64,000 nucleotides of DNA from the NCBI RefSeq assembly GCF_000422725.1, contig NZ_KE383911.1, positions 186,001 to 250,000 on the forward strand, given 5' to 3'. The stretch is from Flavobacterium subsaxonicum WB 4.1-42 = DSM 21790 (GTDB lineage: Bacteria; Bacteroidota; Bacteroidia; Flavobacteriales; Flavobacteriaceae). The first letter of the stretch is position 1. Every line of letters begins with the position of its first letter. The notes below the pieces were generated by a model. That model worked only from the letters and a program-made list of their open reading frames with translations, searched no databases and had not been told where the DNA came from. The translations under genes were made by a program, and so were the position numbers. Of this stretch, positions 2,999 to 60,060 are shown piece by piece.

Positions 2999-3295
2999 TT
3001 ATCGTAACACAAGGTTGGTAACTACTTCGCGGCCAAGCTCTTCGTTAAGCATCTTGATTATTTTATCTTTGCCGTAGCTTAGTTCTTCCCGCAATACGGC
3101 CGATGTAAGCTCTACATACAACGTACTGTTTTTAAGCATAATCTCACGCGTGTAGTTATTTACGCCGTTGCCCATAAGGTTTGCCCAGGCATCGCGCACA
3201 TCAATCTTATCCATGCCCTTTTGCAGGTTGTTAGTCTGCATAATGTGCTTAAGCACATCGCTTAAAGAGTTATTATCGTTTAATCGCTTTGCCAT
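2999..3295 (-). CDS. DUF721 (DciA-like) family protein
   Basis: Small 98-residue protein of the DUF721 family. The region DVRDAWANLMGNGVNNYTREIMLKNSTLYVEL is the family core, with the pattern 'W..ivG..ia..T......g.L.v...' that is also seen in DciA, the replicative helicase loader/interaction factor. A DNA-replication role is inferred from that distant family link only. It follows the lipoprotein gene with a TAATG overlap (stop and start share one base), so the two are translationally coupled. Confidence 0.8.
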   Translation of the reverse strand: MAKRLNDNNSLSDVLKHIMQTNNLQKGMDKIDVRDAWANLMGNGVNNYTREIMLKNSTLYVELTSAVLREELSYGKDKIIKMLNEELGREVVTNLVLR

Positions 3296-3714
3296 TATTT
3301 TATTGTAAAAGGTATTGGTCTTTTGTAGTGATACTCTATGCCGTGCTGGTTTTTAACCACCAATACATCATCATCCAGCTTTACAAGCTCTTCCTGCCAT
3401 TTGGCGTATGTAGTGGTATAATTTACAAAAGTCTTGCCGTCTTTATCGGTAATTGTAAAATCTTCAGAAAGGTCGTTAACCCTATACGTACCGTCAAACT
3501 GCGGCATTACCTTCTTCCGAAAGCCTTTGGTGCCCTTCACTTCAAAAAAATCAACCGTTGGGTTAACCTTATAGTCTTTTTCGGTACCATCGGGCATTTC
3601 AACTTTTTCTATCTCCCAATAGCCATTTATTTTGGCCAGGTCGGCTGTACTAATCTTGGTGTTGCACGACATCATTATAAACGATGCGAACAATAAAAGG
3701 ACAAAATTTTTCAT
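3295..3714 (-). CDS. Small lipocalin-like lipoprotein
   Basis: 139-residue protein with a lipoprotein signal peptide (FASFIMMSCN; lipobox MSC at 15-17), so it should be lipid-anchored in the cell envelope. The mature part has alternating beta-strand segments (INGYWEIEKVEMPDG near 30, FDGTYRV near 75, DFTITDKDGKTFVNYTT near 85), as in Bacteroidota lipocalin-like proteins that begin with a 'G.W.i' motif. No ligand can be named. It is the first gene of a two-gene unit with the DUF721 gene. Confidence 0.7.
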   Translation of the reverse strand: MKNFVLLLFASFIMMSCNTKISTADLAKINGYWEIEKVEMPDGTEKDYKVNPTVDFFEVKGTKGFRKKVMPQFDGTYRVNDLSEDFTITDKDGKTFVNYTTTYAKWQEELVKLDDDVLVVKNQHGIEYHYKRPIPFTIK

Positions 3715-14426: not shown

Positions 14427-15851
14427 CTAATCTTCCCTGCTGCCATCATCGGCCATACGCACAATTTTAGGAGTAAATTTAGCAACCACATCAACCAGTC
14501 CGGTTTGGGCCGCCATAACCATATCAATATCTTTGTAGGCCATAGGCGCTTCGTCGCGGCCGGCACCAATAAGGCTCACACCGTGATCTTTAAGCACCTG
14601 CCTCATATCGGCTTTGGTAATGCTTTTAATGGCCTGTGTACGGCTCATTTGCCTGCCTGCCCCGTGCGACGCGCTGTTAATAGCCGAGGCCTCTCCCCTG
14701 CCCCTTACTAAGAACCCGGGGGCCGTCATACTACCGGGAATTATGCCCATAACGCCTTTACCGGCAGGGGTGGCACCTTTACGGTGCACAATAACCTCTT
14801 CGCCGTTTAAAATTTCTTTCCAGGCAAAGTTATGATGGTTCTCTACCTTAGCAAGCACCTGTGCGCCAATTGCTTTTGCCATTTTATCGTGAATTACCTG
14901 GTGGCACGCCGAAGCATAATCGCCGGCAAGGTTCATGGCTATCCAGTACTCCTGCCCTTCCTGGCTGTTTAAATCCAGATAGGCAAGGTTGGCGGCCTCT
15001 TTAGGCAGCTTGCAAAGGTCTTTTGCCAGGCGGGTGTAATGCCCTGCAATGGTGGCCCCAAAACCACGTGAGCCGGAGTGGGTTAGCAATGCCAGGTAAC
15101 GCCCTTTTTGGATACCAAGCACCTCATCGGCCTGTTCGAATTCGATAATACCGAATTCTACAAAGTGGTTACCCCCGCCCGATGTACCCAGTTGCGACCA
15201 TGCCTTATCGTGCAGGTTCTTTACAAAACGATTCAGGTTAAAATCAGGGCTGTCCAGCACGCCATGATCGGCCTTATGCTGACCGTGGTAGCCATGCCCC
15301 GCGCCAAATTTGGTATGGGCAATAAGCTCTCTCTTATACTTGGCCTCATTCTCATAAAAATGATGCTCCGGAATATCGTATACCGACAGCGCCATACGGC
15401 AGCCAATATCTACCCCTACACCATACGGTATAATGGCATTTTTGGTAGCCAGCACCCCGCCAATTGGCAGGCCGTAGCCCTGGTGGGCATCGGGCATTAG
15501 CGCCCCTGCTACGGTTACGGGCAGTTTCATGGCTATATCCATCTGGGCTTTAGCGCCCGGTTCTATATGGCTTTCGCCGAAAATTGAATACGGCTGCGCA
15601 TTTTCTATCAGTGGGATGATCTCATCTTTCGGCGCATTGGCCTCCTCTATCATGGCCGTTGCCAGGGGCTCCAGCACTTCATCGTCTAAAAAATTCTCAG
15701 GGTAGTCTTTCACCTTCTTAAAAAGTGGCAGCACCACATCTTTGGCCTGTGCACTGTATGCCGAATTGGCTATTTTAAGGGCAATGCCCAGTATAGTACT
15801 CTCGGTATATCCTAAGGCTAAAAGGTCGGTTCCTGTTATTGGCTTTTCCAT
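14427..15851 (-). CDS. rtcB: RNA-splicing ligase RtcB
   Basis: RtcB joins RNA 2',3'-cyclic phosphate or 3'-phosphate ends to 5'-OH ends using GTP and Mn2+, and repairs cleaved tRNAs and other RNAs. The 474-residue protein has the full motif set: MPDAHQGYGLPIGG (119-132), GVDIGCRM with the metal ligand Cys151, GGGNHF (225-230), HSGSRG (258-263), ENHHNF (337-342) and ASHGAGR with the guanylylated His396. The ATG at 15851 begins MEKPITGTDLLALGY. It is the distal gene of a unit starting at the TROVE gene, with three RNA units between them. No archease or RtcA gene is nearby. Confidence 0.97.
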   Translation of the reverse strand: MEKPITGTDLLALGYTESTILGIALKIANSAYSAQAKDVVLPLFKKVKDYPENFLDDEVLEPLATAMIEEANAPKDEIIPLIENAQPYSIFGESHIEPGAKAQMDIAMKLPVTVAGALMPDAHQGYGLPIGGVLATKNAIIPYGVGVDIGCRMALSVYDIPEHHFYENEAKYKRELIAHTKFGAGHGYHGQHKADHGVLDSPDFNLNRFVKNLHDKAWSQLGTSGGGNHFVEFGIIEFEQADEVLGIQKGRYLALLTHSGSRGFGATIAGHYTRLAKDLCKLPKEAANLAYLDLNSQEGQEYWIAMNLAGDYASACHQVIHDKMAKAIGAQVLAKVENHHNFAWKEILNGEEVIVHRKGATPAGKGVMGIIPGSMTAPGFLVRGRGEASAINSASHGAGRQMSRTQAIKSITKADMRQVLKDHGVSLIGAGRDEAPMAYKDIDMVMAAQTGLVDVVAKFTPKIVRMADDGSRED

Positions 15852-15919
15852 TGTATTTATGTATTATGTAACAAGTTACAGTTTTATATTTTTTTGATAG
15901 TTAATTAATTTTTAAAAAG

Positions 15920-15983
15920 AGGCAATGGGCGTAGTGTGCAATAATTTTCATTGGGAGACGAAGTAACACACCACAAACGGCAC
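15920..15983 (-). ncRNA. Minimal Y-RNA-like RNA (third unit)
   Basis: On the minus strand it opens with GUGCCGUUUG and GUUACUUCGU, the two blocks shared by all three units. GUGGUGUG (15974-15967) pairs fully with CACACUAC (15938-15931), allowing one G-U pair. A small CAAU/AUUG hairpin replaces the tRNA-like module, and the 3' end UACGCCCAUUGCC is followed by a U run. About 64 nt. The boundaries are estimates. It resembles a bare Ro60-binding stem. Confidence 0.6.
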
Positions 15984-15993
15984 TCTTGTTATA

Positions 15994-16100
15994 AGAGCAA
16001 TAGGCGTAAGCGCTTGGGTACTTGCAGGATTCGAACCTGCATATCCGGGGGTTAGCCCGTAATATTCATCCGGACGAAGTAACGCTTAACAAACGGCATC
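15994..16100 (-). ncRNA. Y-RNA-like RNA with tRNA-like module (second unit)
   Basis: Minus strand. The 5' part AUGCCGUUUG...GUUACUUCGU is shared with the other units. UAAGCG (16088-16083) pairs with CGCUUA (16012-16007) to close the RNA. Inside are a D-arm-like stem UCCGG/CCGGA (16074-16070 with 16048-16044; 21-nt loop containing GGGCUAACCC) and a strong T-arm, UGCAGG-UUCGAAU-CCUGCA (16041-16023). There is no anticodon arm. The 3' part UACGCCUAUUGC matches the third unit. About 107 nt; ends are estimated. Confidence 0.7.
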
Positions 16101-16123
16101 TTATTTTTTTGTTTTTTTATTTT

Positions 16124-16165
16124 GGGAGTCCTTACCCCCAATCCCTCTCCAAAAGAGAGGGGAGC
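16124..16165. repeat. Dispersed hairpin repeat between the two tRNA-like RNAs
   Basis: A GGGAGTCC...CCCCAATCCCTCTCC...GAGAGGGG sequence of the kind scattered in intergenic regions of Bacteroidota. The stem CCCTCTCC/GAGAGGGG folds on itself. It probably separates the first and second RNA units rather than belonging to either. Confidence 0.55.
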
Positions 16166-16186
16166 AAATTATATTAAAGGAGCAAA

Positions 16187-16309
16187 ATGCGGCATGGGAC
16201 ATAGTGGGGCGTGTTGGCGCCGGAATCGAACCGGATAGCCTTGCCGGGTTTACGACTGCGCTATTCCTCCCCTATTGTGATAACGAAGTAACCCACACCT
16301 ACGGCATCC
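16187..16309 (-). ncRNA. Y-RNA-like RNA with tRNA-like module (first unit)
   Basis: Minus strand, directly downstream of the Ro60 gene. The 5' part AUGCCGUAGG...GUUACUUCGU matches the other units. GUGGG can pair with CCCAC, and the termini AUGC/GCAU pair. Inside, UAGGGG (16274-16269) pairs with CCCCACUA (16209-16202) with one bulge. AUAGC/GCUAU (16264-16260 with 16239-16235) encloses a 20-nt D-loop-like GCAGUCGUAAAC sequence. CCGG-UUCGAUU-CCGG (16234-16220) is the T-arm. No anticodon arm is present. About 123 nt; ends are estimated from pairing. Confidence 0.7.
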
Positions 16310-16391
16310 TTTTTTAGTTATAAATTGACAGCGATACGCTTACAGTTTTCCATTCCGACGCAGGAGGAATCTTACATGCTTTCTTTAAGTT

Positions 16392-16605
16392 TTCAGTATT
16401 CAGTCGCAGTAGGCAGTGCCATACGGACTGAATACTGAGACTATAAACTGAATACCGTAAACTGATCACTGTTAACTGAATACTGCAAACCTGCAGCCCT
16501 TAGGCGATGGCTCCCGCAACATCCAAGCGGCCACGGGAGCAAACCCATTGTTATATTTTTCAGTATTCAGTCGCAGTAGGCAGTGCCGTACGGACTGAAT
16601 ACTGA
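16392..16605. repeat. Two 47-bp repeats plus word array, with enclosed hairpin
   Basis: Copies at 16392-16438 and 16559-16605 match at 46 of 47 bases. Each begins TCAGTATTCAGTC and ends with its exact reverse complement, so each folds as a 13-bp hairpin. Related words (AACTGAATACTG, AAACTGATCACT) fill the space and continue to 16675. Between the copies, GCTCCCG/CGGGAGC (16510-16516 with 16534-16540) forms a separate 7-bp stem in GC-rich sequence unlike the array. Relatives of the repeat occur at 28.4 and 54.0 kb. Confidence 0.75.
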
Positions 16606-16667
16606 AACTGTTAACTGATCACTCTAAACTGACCACTGTAAACTGTAAACTGAATACTGTAAACTGA

Positions 16668-18188
16668 TCACTGCAACTCTAAAGCTTTTATCTTCTCTAC
16701 TGCCGAACCTGCATTACCTACAGAGTCGAGTATATCGAATATCTTATCGCTCCAGCCGGCTATTAAATACACATCGTTCTGGCGTATATCTAATGGTGTT
16801 GCACCGTGGCCGGCAAGGTCAAACAAATACAGTTTGGCATTGGGTGCTATGGCTTTGTAACGTTTCCAGTACACCTCAAAGCTATAACCGCTCATATTGC
16901 TGTTATACAGTTGCAAATCGGTAAACAGCATTACTTTATCTACAATTAGTTTTCGGCGTATAAGGTCGTCTATAACAAGATAGCCGTTGGTGGCATAACC
17001 CACTTCGCCCTCCCGTTTATAGTATTCCATAACGTTAGCCAGTACATTGCGCTTAGGCATATTTATTATTTTCCATGTGTTGCCAAACATACCGCTAACC
17101 ACATTTTTGCATCGGCTTTGCATAAGCATGCCCAGCATAAGGCCAATATCGTACAACTGAACGGTACTTTTTTTAGAAACCGGCTGCTGCATAGAGCCCG
17201 AAACATCGCACGCTATTACTACAGATGTATTGTAACCAAAACCCCGTATGTTTTTTGCGCTGTGCATAACGGCATCTTCCAGCGCATCCAGCACCATCGA
17301 CGTAAAGTTCGAATTATGGCCTTTAAGCTCGCGGTAAGCCGAAAGAAATCTAAAAGGCAGTTGCTTAGATGTTGCCACCGCCGTTGGGCTGGCCAGATAG
17401 TTGCAAACCATTTGCAGGTGGGCTACAGATACCCCGGCATCCAGTATATTGCGGAGGTTGCGCATTAGCGCCATGTAGCCCATTTTTTTACTGGCTATTA
17501 ATTCTTCCCATTTAGTTTTAAAGGCAGCTGCTTTTGCCGCAGGGCTTTCAAACCTTTGCTGGCCCAGGGCAGACAGCTCCGTCTCCCAGGTGTACGGCGT
17601 GGCAAGGGCATCGGCAGCTATTTTATTAAACACTGCCTGCTGATTATCGTCTTTAGCCCTTGGGTGTACCAAAAACAGCGCATCCCTAAGCTTAACATCG
17701 GTACTCCTGTTGTATTTGGCAAACTGGTACTCATCAAACTTATTGAATGATACCGCTAAGCCTTTTTGTACCTGCTTAGATAGCCTGTTTAGCTTTTTGG
17801 TACCCGTTCTGGCATTAGCCAGTTGGTAGTAGGCCAAAAGTTCGCATATTTCGTCGGCGCGCTGTACAACATTACTAACCGTTTTGCTTACCGCCGATGT
17901 GCCCGATGCCGCTTTGGCCAGCTCTACCGCCAATACCATTGGCACAGAGCGAAGGTGCATTTGTGTACGGGCATACACGGCAAGCCTGGCAACAAACTCC
18001 GGGTCGCACTGGCTTATAAGCTTTTTAATACGCTCCAGCCTGTTGTCTCCCAATTCGTAAAATGAATCATTTAAACCCGTTGTAACCACTGCGGTATACA
18101 ATTCTGTTTCGGGAGTTATTTTATAAGCTTTAGCCCCCTGGTAATTTACCGTTGCATTGTTTAGTTTGCTTAAAAAATTGAATTTCAT
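16668..18188 (-). CDS. rsr: Ro60-like RNA-binding protein (TROVE domain, Rsr)
   Basis: Ro60 proteins form a ring of helical repeats that binds misfolded RNA ends in the hole and Y RNA on the outside. In bacteria they work with exonucleases and RNA repair. This 506-residue protein has the TROVE helical region (about 1-310) and a C-terminal von Willebrand A domain (about 320-500) with an intact metal site: DVSGSMQ (Asp328, Ser330, Ser332), Thr400 in GYATNGY, and FTDLQ (Asp424). Three RNA units and rtcB follow on the same strand, and a WYL regulator is divergent. The promoter and operator-like sites lie at 18254-18296. Confidence 0.92.
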   Translation of the reverse strand: MKFNFLSKLNNATVNYQGAKAYKITPETELYTAVVTTGLNDSFYELGDNRLERIKKLISQCDPEFVARLAVYARTQMHLRSVPMVLAVELAKAASGTSAVSKTVSNVVQRADEICELLAYYQLANARTGTKKLNRLSKQVQKGLAVSFNKFDEYQFAKYNRSTDVKLRDALFLVHPRAKDDNQQAVFNKIAADALATPYTWETELSALGQQRFESPAAKAAAFKTKWEELIASKKMGYMALMRNLRNILDAGVSVAHLQMVCNYLASPTAVATSKQLPFRFLSAYRELKGHNSNFTSMVLDALEDAVMHSAKNIRGFGYNTSVVIACDVSGSMQQPVSKKSTVQLYDIGLMLGMLMQSRCKNVVSGMFGNTWKIINMPKRNVLANVMEYYKREGEVGYATNGYLVIDDLIRRKLIVDKVMLFTDLQLYNSNMSGYSFEVYWKRYKAIAPNAKLYLFDLAGHGATPLDIRQNDVYLIAGWSDKIFDILDSVGNAGSAVEKIKALELQ

Positions 18189-18253
18189 ACTACAAATGTT
18201 TATTATTAGTACTTGTTTTACAGGAGAGTAATTGTTGTCTCATCCTGACATTG

Positions 18254-18283
18254 CAAAGATGGCCGCACTACTACGCAACACAA
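18254..18283 (-). promoter_or_regulatory. Candidate promoter of the Ro60-RNA-rtcB unit
   Basis: Minus strand TTG (18283-18281), 19-bp spacer, CATCTTTG (18261-18254), one base from TAnnTTTG. It lies 66 bp before the TROVE start. A TGCGCAGTAAAA site lies immediately upstream, at an activator-like position. Confidence 0.5.
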
Positions 18284-18284
18284 T

Positions 18285-18438
18285 TGCGCAGTAAAAATAA
18301 AATTCAAAATATTTCACTTTGCATTGATTTACAATAATTTAAAATTTAAAATTCATCATTTAAAATTTTAAATAATGTAAGTGCGCAGCTACAGTGCGCA
18401 GTAAAAGCAAATTTTGCTATTTTTGATGCGCACCAAAA
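18285..18438 (+). promoter_or_regulatory. Four TGCGCA-based operator-like sites
   Basis: TGCGCAGTAAAA occurs exactly at 18285-18296 and 18395-18406. TGCGCAGCTACA is at 18382-18393 and TGCGCACCAAAA at 18427-18438. All four point the same way. They flank both divergent promoters and are the best candidates for binding sites of the WYL regulator. Confidence 0.55.
18418..18425 (+). promoter_or_regulatory. Candidate -7 element of the WYL regulator gene
   Basis: TATTTTTG fits TAnnTTTG and lies 39 bp before the ATG. A TGCGCAGTAAAA site covers the -33 region and a TGCGCACCAAAA site lies just downstream, which would suit autoregulation. Confidence 0.45.
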
Positions 18439-18464
18439 GCACCTAAACACAAATTATTACACTA

Positions 18465-19502
18465 ATGGCTACAAATAAGCTTGCCCTGCTACGCTATAAA
18501 ACCATAGACGACTGCCTTAAAAACCGATTTAGAAAATGGAGCCTGGAAGACCTTATAGAAAAAGTAGCCGATGCGCTTTACGAATACGAGGGTATTACTA
18601 CCGGGGTAAGCCGCCGCACCATACAGGCCGACCTGCAAATTATGCGCAGCGACCGCCTGGGCTACAATGCCCCCATTATGGTAACCGACCGTAAATTTTA
18701 CAGTTACGAAGACCCTGCCTACAGCATTACAAAATCGCCGGTTAATACAGCCGATATGGATAAGATGCGCGAAATTGTAAGCGTACTTAAGCAGCTTAAC
18801 GGTTTTAATTACTTTGATGAGATGAGCGACCTTATTGCCAAGTTGGAAAACAACGTAAACAAAACAGCGCATAAGAGTAAAAACTACATTCAGTTTGAAG
18901 ATAACAAGAACCTTAAGGGCATAGAGCACATTAACCCGCTGTACCAGGCCATACTTAGCAAAACACCGCTGCTTATAGAGTACCAGTCGTTCAGGGCATT
19001 AAAGCCAAGTAAAGAAATTTACTACCCCTACCTGCTTAAAGAGCACCGCAACCGTTGGTTCTTAGTGGCGCAGTGCAAAAAGAGTCCGTATTTAATAACG
19101 CTGGCGTTAGACCGCATGGTAGAATTTCATGTACTTACTAAAGAGCTTTTTGTAGAATACAACGGCGTAGATTTCGACCGGTATTTTAACGACCTTATTG
19201 GCATTACCAAATCGCAAAAAGACAGGGCACAAAAAGTAGTGCTCCAGTTTGATAAAACCAACGCGCCCTACGTGCTTACAAAGCCCCTGCACCACTCGCA
19301 GCAACTGCTCAGCGAAAACGAAAATGGCATTACCATACGTATAGATGTAGTACTTAACTTTGAGCTGGAAAAAGAAATTTTAGGCTTTGGCGAATGCGTA
19401 AAGGTATTAGCACCCCGCAACCTTAAAAGCTTTATACAAAAGCGGCTTAAAAGGGCAAGTGTACAATATGAGGAAGAGGTTGTTGGGAAGAAACAGAATT
19501 AA
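18465..19502 (+). CDS. WYL-domain transcriptional regulator
   Basis: 345 residues. The N-terminal part (about 1-65) contains a helix-turn-helix typical of the WYL group (YEGITTGVSRRTIQADLQIM). The WYL domain (about 155-250) contains KTPLLIEYQSF, EIYYPYLLKEHRNRWFLVAQ and ITLALDRMVEF. A WCX-like C-terminal extension follows (about 260-340). WYL regulators in bacteria sense nucleic-acid or nucleotide ligands in DNA-damage and phage responses. It is divergent from the TROVE-RNA-rtcB unit and shares its promoter region, so it is the likely switch of that unit, in the place taken by RtcR in proteobacteria. The ligand is unknown. Confidence 0.9.
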   Translation: MATNKLALLRYKTIDDCLKNRFRKWSLEDLIEKVADALYEYEGITTGVSRRTIQADLQIMRSDRLGYNAPIMVTDRKFYSYEDPAYSITKSPVNTADMDKMREIVSVLKQLNGFNYFDEMSDLIAKLENNVNKTAHKSKNYIQFEDNKNLKGIEHINPLYQAILSKTPLLIEYQSFRALKPSKEIYYPYLLKEHRNRWFLVAQCKKSPYLITLALDRMVEFHVLTKELFVEYNGVDFDRYFNDLIGITKSQKDRAQKVVLQFDKTNAPYVLTKPLHHSQQLLSENENGITIRIDVVLNFELEKEILGFGECVKVLAPRNLKSFIQKRLKRASVQYEEEVVGKKQN

Positions 19503-59895: not shown

Positions 59896-60060
59896 TGCCT
59901 ACATTAGTACTTTTTTGATAAACTCAACGCCAATTTTTTAAAAATGGGTGAATCGTCGCTACTATAGCAAGCTGCCCTGAGCAGATCCTTGAACAGCGGG
60001 TTAGCCCAAAACTTGTTACACCGAGTTTATACAATTACCCACTGATGTAGGCTTTTTTTT
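59896..60060 (+). ncRNA. ssrS: 6S RNA (6S-Flavo type)
   Basis: The location between zapA and rny is typical for 6S RNA, which mimics an open promoter and holds the housekeeping RNA polymerase in stationary phase. The RNA folds as one long hairpin: GCCTACATTAGT pairs with ACTGATGTAGGC at the ends, then ATAAACTC (59918-59925) with GAGTTTAT (60023-60030), with internal bulges and a terminal loop. A run of nine T follows as a terminator. Fold and location agree; the class call is from memory of the Flavobacteriales family. Confidence 0.75.

Follow-up and report, generated by a model that had tools for sequence, protein, structure and literature searches.

A Ro60-RtcB locus with an array of Y RNA-like units and a candidate WYL operator in Flavobacterium subsaxonicum and its relatives

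The Ro60 orthologue Rsr of Salmonella is encoded in the RtcR-controlled operon rsr-yrlBA-rtcBA, which contains two Y RNAs and whose layout has been connected with tRNA fragments that arise after DNA damage (PMC7790460, PMC8394870). The Y RNA YrlA binds Rsr via a stem, and its head resembles a tRNA (PMC8394870). In Deinococcus, Rsr and a Y RNA work together with PNPase in the Rsr-Y RNA-PNPase complex RYPER (PMC7790460, PMC8394870). Here we describe a locus in a stretch of 64,000 nucleotides of the genome of Flavobacterium subsaxonicum WB 4.1-42 = DSM 21790 (assembly GCF_000422725.1, contig NZ_KE383911.1, positions 186,001 to 250,000; hereafter the window, to which all coordinates without a locus name refer). 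Judged by the operon name (PMC7790460), it has a Ro60 orthologue, predicted Y RNAs and RtcB in the same order as in Salmonella. It shares a Ro60 protein and Y RNA with RYPER as well, but has several such RNAs and a linked RNA ligase. The locus is, in our view, probably an inducible RNA-damage operon in which a WYL regulator would switch Ro60, Y RNAs and RtcB. A literature search found no description of these arrays; an earlier one may exist.

The gene for Ro60/Rsr (16668..18188, minus strand; PF05731, 105.3 bits) is followed on the same strand by a gap of 816 bases and then by rtcB, predicted to encode an RNA 3'-phosphate/5'-OH ligase (14427..15851, minus strand; PF01139, 283.7 bits), and the gene of a WYL-WCX transcription regulator (18465..19502, plus strand) diverges from Ro60. 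The assignment of Ro60 is based on its TROVE domain and on a vWA part with the metal ion-dependent adhesion site (MIDAS) motif DVSGSM; the vWA part reaches 26.4 bits with vWA_Ro60, just below the cut-off of 27.7, and residues 9-490 align to the solved TROVE proteins PDB 9l5y/9kop (E 8e-32). Besides the family profile, the alignment to solved RtcB argues for an RtcB ligase, with the HQGYG, DIGC, GNHF, HSGSRG and HGAGR stretches, which we take to be active-site parts, all present. The regulator is classified by its WYL and WCX domains (PF13280, 41.8 bits; PF25583, 37.1 bits) and matches the WYL model of PADLOC at 83.2 bits. In the assembly (4.64 Mb, 18 contigs, completeness listed as 99.98%), RtcB was found at one single place, and the TROVE gene is also single, the genome search having matched two stretches of the same Ro60 gene. 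No match to RtcA (PF01137) or to archease (PF01951) was obtained in the assembly with profiles that matched 5 (including E. coli) and 6 of 14 control genomes, respectively. The lack of an RtcA match differs from the Salmonella operon, as does the regulator: the divergent neighbour is the WYL-WCX gene, accompanied by a palindrome, and not RtcR, for which the rest of the genome was not searched. The original prediction, which was made from the letters of the DNA, had named RtcB, Ro60 and a WYL regulator, had placed the first two on one strand with RNAs between them and the third on the other, and had pointed to WYL instead of RtcR and to the absence of RtcA and archease; all of this agrees with the profile searches. 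Two other views of the locus were set aside. As a defence system, it finds no match for RtcB or Ro60 in PADLOC, which for the WYL protein gives two models of WYL signalling and one of Cas3c (31.9 bits); as a recent transfer by phage or plasmid, it has Ro60 relatives there (95 and 77 records) that are all less than 60% identical.

The gap between Ro60 and rtcB holds three Y RNA-like units, first noticed via three copies of ACGAAGTAAC on the plus strand and all encoded on the minus strand. The unit that adjoins rtcB (15914..15990) is of type D and is recognised by the covariance model R1 (65.1 bits) and by covariation in the A2 alignment; the next one (15989..16106) is of type C, with the T-arm head GCAGG-loop-CCTGC; and the third (16174..16314) is of type B, in which a head with GGGG..CCCC and a hairpin is followed by a T-arm. 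In the window, the model R2 matched 16174-16314 (129.8 bits) and 15989-16106 (44.4 bits), and R1 matched 15914-15990 and 16174-16314 (49.3 bits) without listing 15989-16106; in the whole-genome search, R1 gave 15914-15990, again at 65.1 bits, and 15989-16106 (40.3 bits), so that each search reported two of the three units. The scores of unit D with R1 and of unit B with R2 are not independent, these units being rows of the respective alignments, and unit C is in neither alignment. Neither Rfam nor ARAGORN reported any of the three, in line with the expectation that an automatic annotation would miss them. The description of the RNAs as tRNA-like held for units C and B, whose T-stems pair at 5/5 and 4/5 positions, and not for unit D, in which a T-loop scan found no T-arm. 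Units D (15917-15990) and C fold better than shuffled sequences (z-scores of -3.10 and -2.93, respectively). Since unit B alone (16178-16316) does not (z +0.17), single-sequence folding is a weak guide here, and we used comparative evidence in its place.

Both ends of the unit contribute to a two-part terminal stem, which is common to all three window units together with UUACUUCG. On the minus strand, the order of elements is stem 1, a U bulge, G(C/U), CGU, stem 2, UUACUUCG and the head, after which come stem 2', about nine bases ending in UUGC or UUAC, and stem 1'. Alignments were made of all 36 listed type B units and of 37 of the 92 listed short type D units, the latter hand-picked for diversity, as were 39 of the 121 listed units of a further type, A; all aligned units had passed a filter for motif and pairing. 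RNAalifold, with no structure supplied, recovered the double stem in both the type B and the type D alignment, and 24 of the 36 predicted pairs of type B (stem and head) and 13 of the 14 of type D vary on both sides. With the stem as defined above, 15 of 16 pairs vary on both sides in the type D set, columns 11/75 alone having U-A in place of C-G in 13 of the 37 sequences. The stem cells of the type D set are paired in 90.2%, compared with a mean of 66.5% after shuffling and at most 53.6% in slid versions, although the prior filtering of these rows for pairing favours this percentage, and the covariation score is 0.707 versus 0.249 when shuffled. The stem formed by the 5' and 3' ends is thus structurally conserved, as seen by covariation in types B and D, and the three small structured RNAs that had been proposed for the gap are supported by the models and by this comparison.

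The heads differ between units. Types were assigned by simple text rules, and some long units counted as type D have other heads, including a 23S-like one; with this proviso, 416 motif cores comprise 134 of type A, 39 of type B, 107 of type C and 136 of type D. The head of type A has the order T-arm, loop-closed acceptor stem, D-arm, and is a circularly permuted tRNA in which the Ro60 stem occupies the place of the anticodon arm. Type B has another hairpin and then a T-arm, type C has a T-arm, and type D has neither. Among T-loop-like matches, four or five of the five stem positions pair in 135/215 (A), 38/51 (B) and 105/150 (C) cases, versus 1/169 in type D and 472/5278 on opposite strands. 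In nine loci of relatives the order of units is A-B-D-C-D; in the window it is only B-C-D, and the text rules found no type A unit in its gap. At the position often taken by a type A unit in relatives, that is, in the spacer between Ro60 and the array, a repeat search revealed two 110-nucleotide direct repeats (16381-16490 and 16548-16657, no strand assigned), and part of this region resembles, by eye, the spacer of locus L008. Scans of seven loci aligned type A units of relatives to the YrlA family RF02553 with 30-41 bits, the best score of 41.2 bits being below the gathering score of 69 bits, and the window gap has no match to RF02553 at E<=1. The likeness to YrlA consists of the terminal stem made by both ends and, in the type A units of relatives, of a T-arm, a closed acceptor stem and a D-arm in that order. 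From these weak matches of the relatives, we place the gap RNAs with the bacterial Y RNAs and regard the layout, as judged by sequence, as a variant of an operon already known, rsr-Y RNA-rtcB. Other candidates in the gap were discarded: ARAGORN finds no true tRNA gene in the window, and two miRNA-family matches elsewhere in the gap (Rfam, E<=1) were taken as chance.

The array is conserved in relatives. Among the best 80 of 218 relatives, 79 loci have at least one unit with both stems, downstream of Ro60 and on the same strand; the exception is L060, whose contig stops some 200 bases past Ro60. With the motif and both stems as requirements, a script gave 382 units in 83 sources (the 80 loci, L004, L005 and the window), compared with two cores, one of them paired, on the opposite strands of the same sources. 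R1, which was built from 37 short units, 36 of them from the 80 loci, had 373 matches at E<=1e-4 in these loci, and all of the 300 matches listed are on the Ro60 strand and downstream of Ro60. The units are thus encoded beside the Ro60/Rsr gene, as is the case for bacterial Y RNA. R1 also matched in 7 of 7 genomes with Ro60 versus 0 of 9 without it. In the same family, this Ro60 is present in 3 of 397 genomes, and R1 matched in four of the 397: strongly in two that have Ro60, and weakly (30.5 and 28.2 bits) in two that lack it, G383 and G155, whose matches were taken as chance after reading by eye. The third genome with Ro60, G079, has no R1 match, and its contig stops about 190 bases past Ro60. 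By tblastn, rtcB is the best hit on the Ro60 strand within the flank in 18 of the 80 loci. The original prediction had suggested looking in related genomes for the order TROVE-gap-rtcB-WYL, and had named a lack of conservation of the gap as evidence against itself; the whole order WYL-Ro60-array-rtcB is kept in 16 of the 80 loci (tblastn), each with units, and the gap is conserved in the sense that 79 of 80 carry units. Compared with the two Y RNAs of Salmonella, there are three units here, arrays in loci without rtcB within the examined flank reach 11 cores, and the heads are of several types.

R1 further matched at 20-47 bits upstream of Ro60 in six of ten viral loci (L147-L151 and L153; no match in L145, L146, L152 and L154), suggesting that the stem belongs to a wider kind of Y RNA. 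One viral contig (L151:18-2466) has many closely spaced tRNA matches upstream of its Ro60 gene, with its R1 match at 3325-3400. A permuted tmRNA match of Brevundimonas phage vB_BpoS-Bambus (L154:7744-8001; 57.9 bits, above the cut-off) lies a few kb from Ro60, and YrlA matches weakly at 3283-3395 of the same locus. T-loop-like stretches with no UUACUUCG core listed were also seen upstream of Ro60 in L034:343-2268, L026:3004-3528 and L046:1998-2182, the last with partial YrlA and tRNA matches in Rfam. Elsewhere in the window, a 6S-Flavo RNA lies at 59922-60028 (96.4 bits), in keeping with the family Flavobacteriaceae.

The region between Ro60 and the WYL gene contains two copies of a 27-bp palindrome whose best form is CTGCGCA-N7-TGCGCAG. 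Candidate operator 1 (18268..18294; TGCGCA-N7-TGCGTA on the minus strand, 22.6 bits) lies before Ro60, and candidate operator 2 (18378..18404; TGCGCA-N7-TGCGCA, 22.7 bits) before the WYL gene. These scores are those of a position weight matrix whose 63 training sites come from the loci compared here, operator 2 being in the training set and operator 1 not having been taken in by the training pattern. The third-best site in the 64 kb reaches 9.0 bits, and five mononucleotide shuffles gave 0, 0, 1, 0 and 0 sites at 9 bits. In the assembly, the core pattern occurs at four places, two of them in this locus, compared with one place for the backward control. A first version of the pattern, with a spacer of 6 bases, had been at chance level (15 versus 10.1 expected with at most 2 mismatches) and was replaced by one with a spacer of 7. 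Ten bases past operator 1 there is a TTTG (18254..18257, minus strand), the putative -7 core of the Ro60 promoter, and another TTTG, read by eye, is 8 bases past operator 2 (18413-18416, plus strand). In relatives, 62 of 79 loci have a palindrome of at least 9 bits upstream of Ro60, each followed by a TTTG that lies outside the weight matrix and starts 9 (40 loci) or 10 (22 loci) bases past it. Of 78 loci, 47 have a palindrome of at least 15 bits in the interval from Ro60 to the first unit, with TTTG at 9 (29) or 10 (18) bases. The contig-edge locus L069 was left out of both counts, and L060 of the array count. TAnnTTTG is the -7 consensus of the housekeeping sigma factor of Bacteroidota and has been confirmed in F. 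johnsoniae, where no -33 motif was detected (PMC7366714). The TA part is present in none of the 62 sites before Ro60.

From its position and co-occurrence, we infer that the palindrome is a candidate WYL operator. PafBC and SiwR (activators), BrxR (a repressor) and DriD are WYL regulators as well. SiwR and BrxR have a short palindrome near the promoter (PMC10693628, PMC9122601), and PafBC, whose WYL domains sense single-stranded DNA, uses a -26 motif to act between the promoter and sigma domain 4 (PMC11804915). The parts of the WYL literature examined contain no link of a WYL protein to Ro60, Y RNA or RtcB. A palindrome directly ahead of a weak -7 element would suit an activator acting like PafBC, and a repressor such as BrxR is also possible.

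The palindrome is also connected with other ligase genes. Eight Chryseobacterium and Epilithonimonas genomes have no WYL gene beside Ro60, and all eight have a WYL homologue (44-50% identical) 0.6-5.3 kb from a second RtcB (RtcB2, 33-35% identical). As had been set beforehand as a prediction, a palindrome of at least 11 bits is located just before RtcB2 in five of the eight (12.8 to 29.5 bits); the one in L111 overlaps the start of the longest reading frame, and relatives of that frame start later. The short genes found between WYL and RtcB2 in these regions (L107-L114) include a HopJ family member in L110 (PF08888), the others being alike by eye, and L109 has a helicase-like gene of 1331 amino acids (AAA_11/12, DUF4011) that, by eye, has a counterpart in L107. 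Unlike the Salmonella operon, the two rtcB-less related loci that were examined have other RNA repair genes in its place. In L015, the genes preceded by the palindrome are a T4-type Rnl1 ligase (PF09511) and Hen1 (PF22032); in L021, Pnkp (PF25109 and AAA_33) comes after a palindrome-preceded gene that resembles the L015 ligase by eye only. L011 has RlaP (PF10127) in addition to rtcB. Pnkp1-Rnl-Hen1 is a known bacterial RNA repair complex (PMC4411300); its likeness to L015 (Rnl1-type ligase and Hen1) and L021 (Pnkp) differs in that these genes are near Ro60 and Y RNA arrays, with the shared palindrome ahead of the L015 pair, and they do not occur in the window locus.

Based on these observations, we propose that the WYL regulator would bind the palindrome in its own promoter and in that of Ro60, and that a damage signal, probably a nucleic-acid end or an oligonucleotide, would make it change the expression of Ro60, the Y RNA array and RtcB. 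The Y RNAs, if transcribed as expected, would bind the Ro60 ring via their common terminal stem and present differing heads, which may allow the gating of one Ro60 or its tethering to various RNA substrates or enzymes. RtcB would rejoin breaks with 2',3'-cyclic-phosphate and 5'-OH ends, such as those of nuclease-cut tRNAs, without RtcA or archease. RtcB itself opens 2',3'-cyclic phosphates, making RtcA dispensable. That the units would be Ro60-bound Y RNAs, and that RtcB would mend cleaved RNA, is drawn by analogy from the layout shared with Salmonella and from the binding of YrlA to Rsr.

Several points weigh against this reading, apart from the filtering of the type D rows, the origin of the weight matrix and the poor fold of unit B. 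The palindrome upstream of Ro60 stays below 9 bits in 17 of the 79 loci, and before rtcB it reaches at least 13 bits in 6 of 19 loci and falls below 13 bits in the other 13; in three of the eight RtcB2 regions none was found at 11 bits. In the window, no palindrome was found before the array or before rtcB, so that read-through from Ro60 has to be assumed. The core pattern occurs one to three times in 15 of 17 genomes searched, in some of them away from Ro60 and WYL (G410:C49, G410:C65, G413:C111, G411:C1, G402:C5:439883 and G398:C107:567858); these sites may be further regulon members or chance, and the regulon may thus be wider. Finally, no RtcB was found within the examined flank in any locus named Chryseobacterium; these loci keep Ro60, and the array therefore does not need a linked RtcB.

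This last point bears on the alternative that survives best, namely that Ro60 with its Y RNAs and RtcB share a locus and a regulator and act separately, the former by steering a nuclease of the PNPase type to structured RNA that is damaged, for decay, and the latter by repairing other breaks. The work of Rsr and Y RNA with PNPase in Deinococcus (PMC7790460, PMC8394870) is in favour of it, as are the Chryseobacterium-named loci, which have kept the array as well (the contig-cut L060 shows no unit), and we regard it as a serious possibility that falls somewhat short of an even chance. However, the presence of rtcB on the Ro60 strand in 18 of the 80 loci fits joint induction, although it is no proof of joint action, and so do the Rnl1/Hen1 or Pnkp genes of the two rtcB-less loci together with the shared palindrome.

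It is less likely, and on balance doubtful, that the tRNA-like heads are decoys for tRNA-cutting nucleases or tRNA-modifying enzymes and thereby shield tRNAs, with RtcB mending the cut ones. The heads do copy features of the T-arm and, in type A, of the D-arm; a role as competitive inhibitor has been suggested for YrlA (PMC7790460), which is also a substrate of DusA and TruB (PMC8394870). Type A heads, however, have the Ro60 stem at the place of the anticodon arm, and no anticodon arm is visible by eye in types B and C. This counts against decoys, as anticodon nucleases cut at the anticodon arm. In addition, fragments of Salmonella YrlA were not detected (PMC7790460).

That the gap units are only structured elements of an mRNA, such as processing signals or leaders, and not stable Ro60-bound RNAs, would fit their position between co-directional genes with no palindrome before them and a scan of the gap that found no terminators and sigma-70-like promoters at chance (2 sites versus 1.8 expected, in a scan that does not cover Bacteroidota promoters), but is very improbable given the arrays of up to 11 cores in loci without flanking rtcB, the palindrome with TTTG that stands after Ro60 and ahead of the array in 47 of 78 loci, the matches of type A units to RF02553 and those of the stem model upstream of Ro60 in six viral loci.

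Ten loci (L023, L034, L036, L040, L046, L047, L051, L053, L075 and L077) have a unit of about 220 nucleotides whose head contains ACGGTCCTAARGTAGCG (for example, L051:8605-8832, L053:9523-9748 and L036:8296-8520). In seven of them, the head was compared with the stretch that it matches at another place of the host genome, presumably 23S rRNA in the region of helices 69-71; the best local match is 25-33 positions long and contains 0-3 mismatches, and in G404 the head is identical to the host stretch at 33 of 33 positions. The remainder of the head is also conserved. The Ro60 stems are readable in all ten units, which align with a mean column identity of 88%, and the unit of L051 folds with a z-score of -4.10. 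The genome of the window has no match to the pattern, not even in a 23S gene, and its assembly is therefore no test of this head. A group I intron as the origin was rejected: Rfam gave no intron match at E<=1 in L036:7900-8900. Judging by the 23S-like head, mimicry by Y RNAs may extend from tRNA to ribosomal RNA.

In a broader and more tentative view, which we consider possible and hold with less than even confidence, the Ro60 platform of Bacteroidota would be modular: a WYL operator would tie Ro60 and an array of Y RNAs with mimic heads to whichever ligase the strain has, and the heads would aim at damaged RNA of the translation machinery. If so, the heads would be a permuted tRNA (type A), a hairpin with T-arm (B), a T-arm (C), no head (D) and a mimic of 23S rRNA in ten Chryseobacterium-type loci; the operator-linked ligase would be RtcB, a second RtcB or Rnl1/Hen1/Pnkp; and each head would direct either Ro60 or an enzyme of repair or decay to its cognate class of damaged RNA. 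The Y RNA-like units, which escaped both Rfam and ARAGORN here, now have a covariance model. The array family provides many natural variants, with a common stem, varied heads, varied ligases and a recognisable candidate operator, and the roles of heads and ligases thereby become testable.

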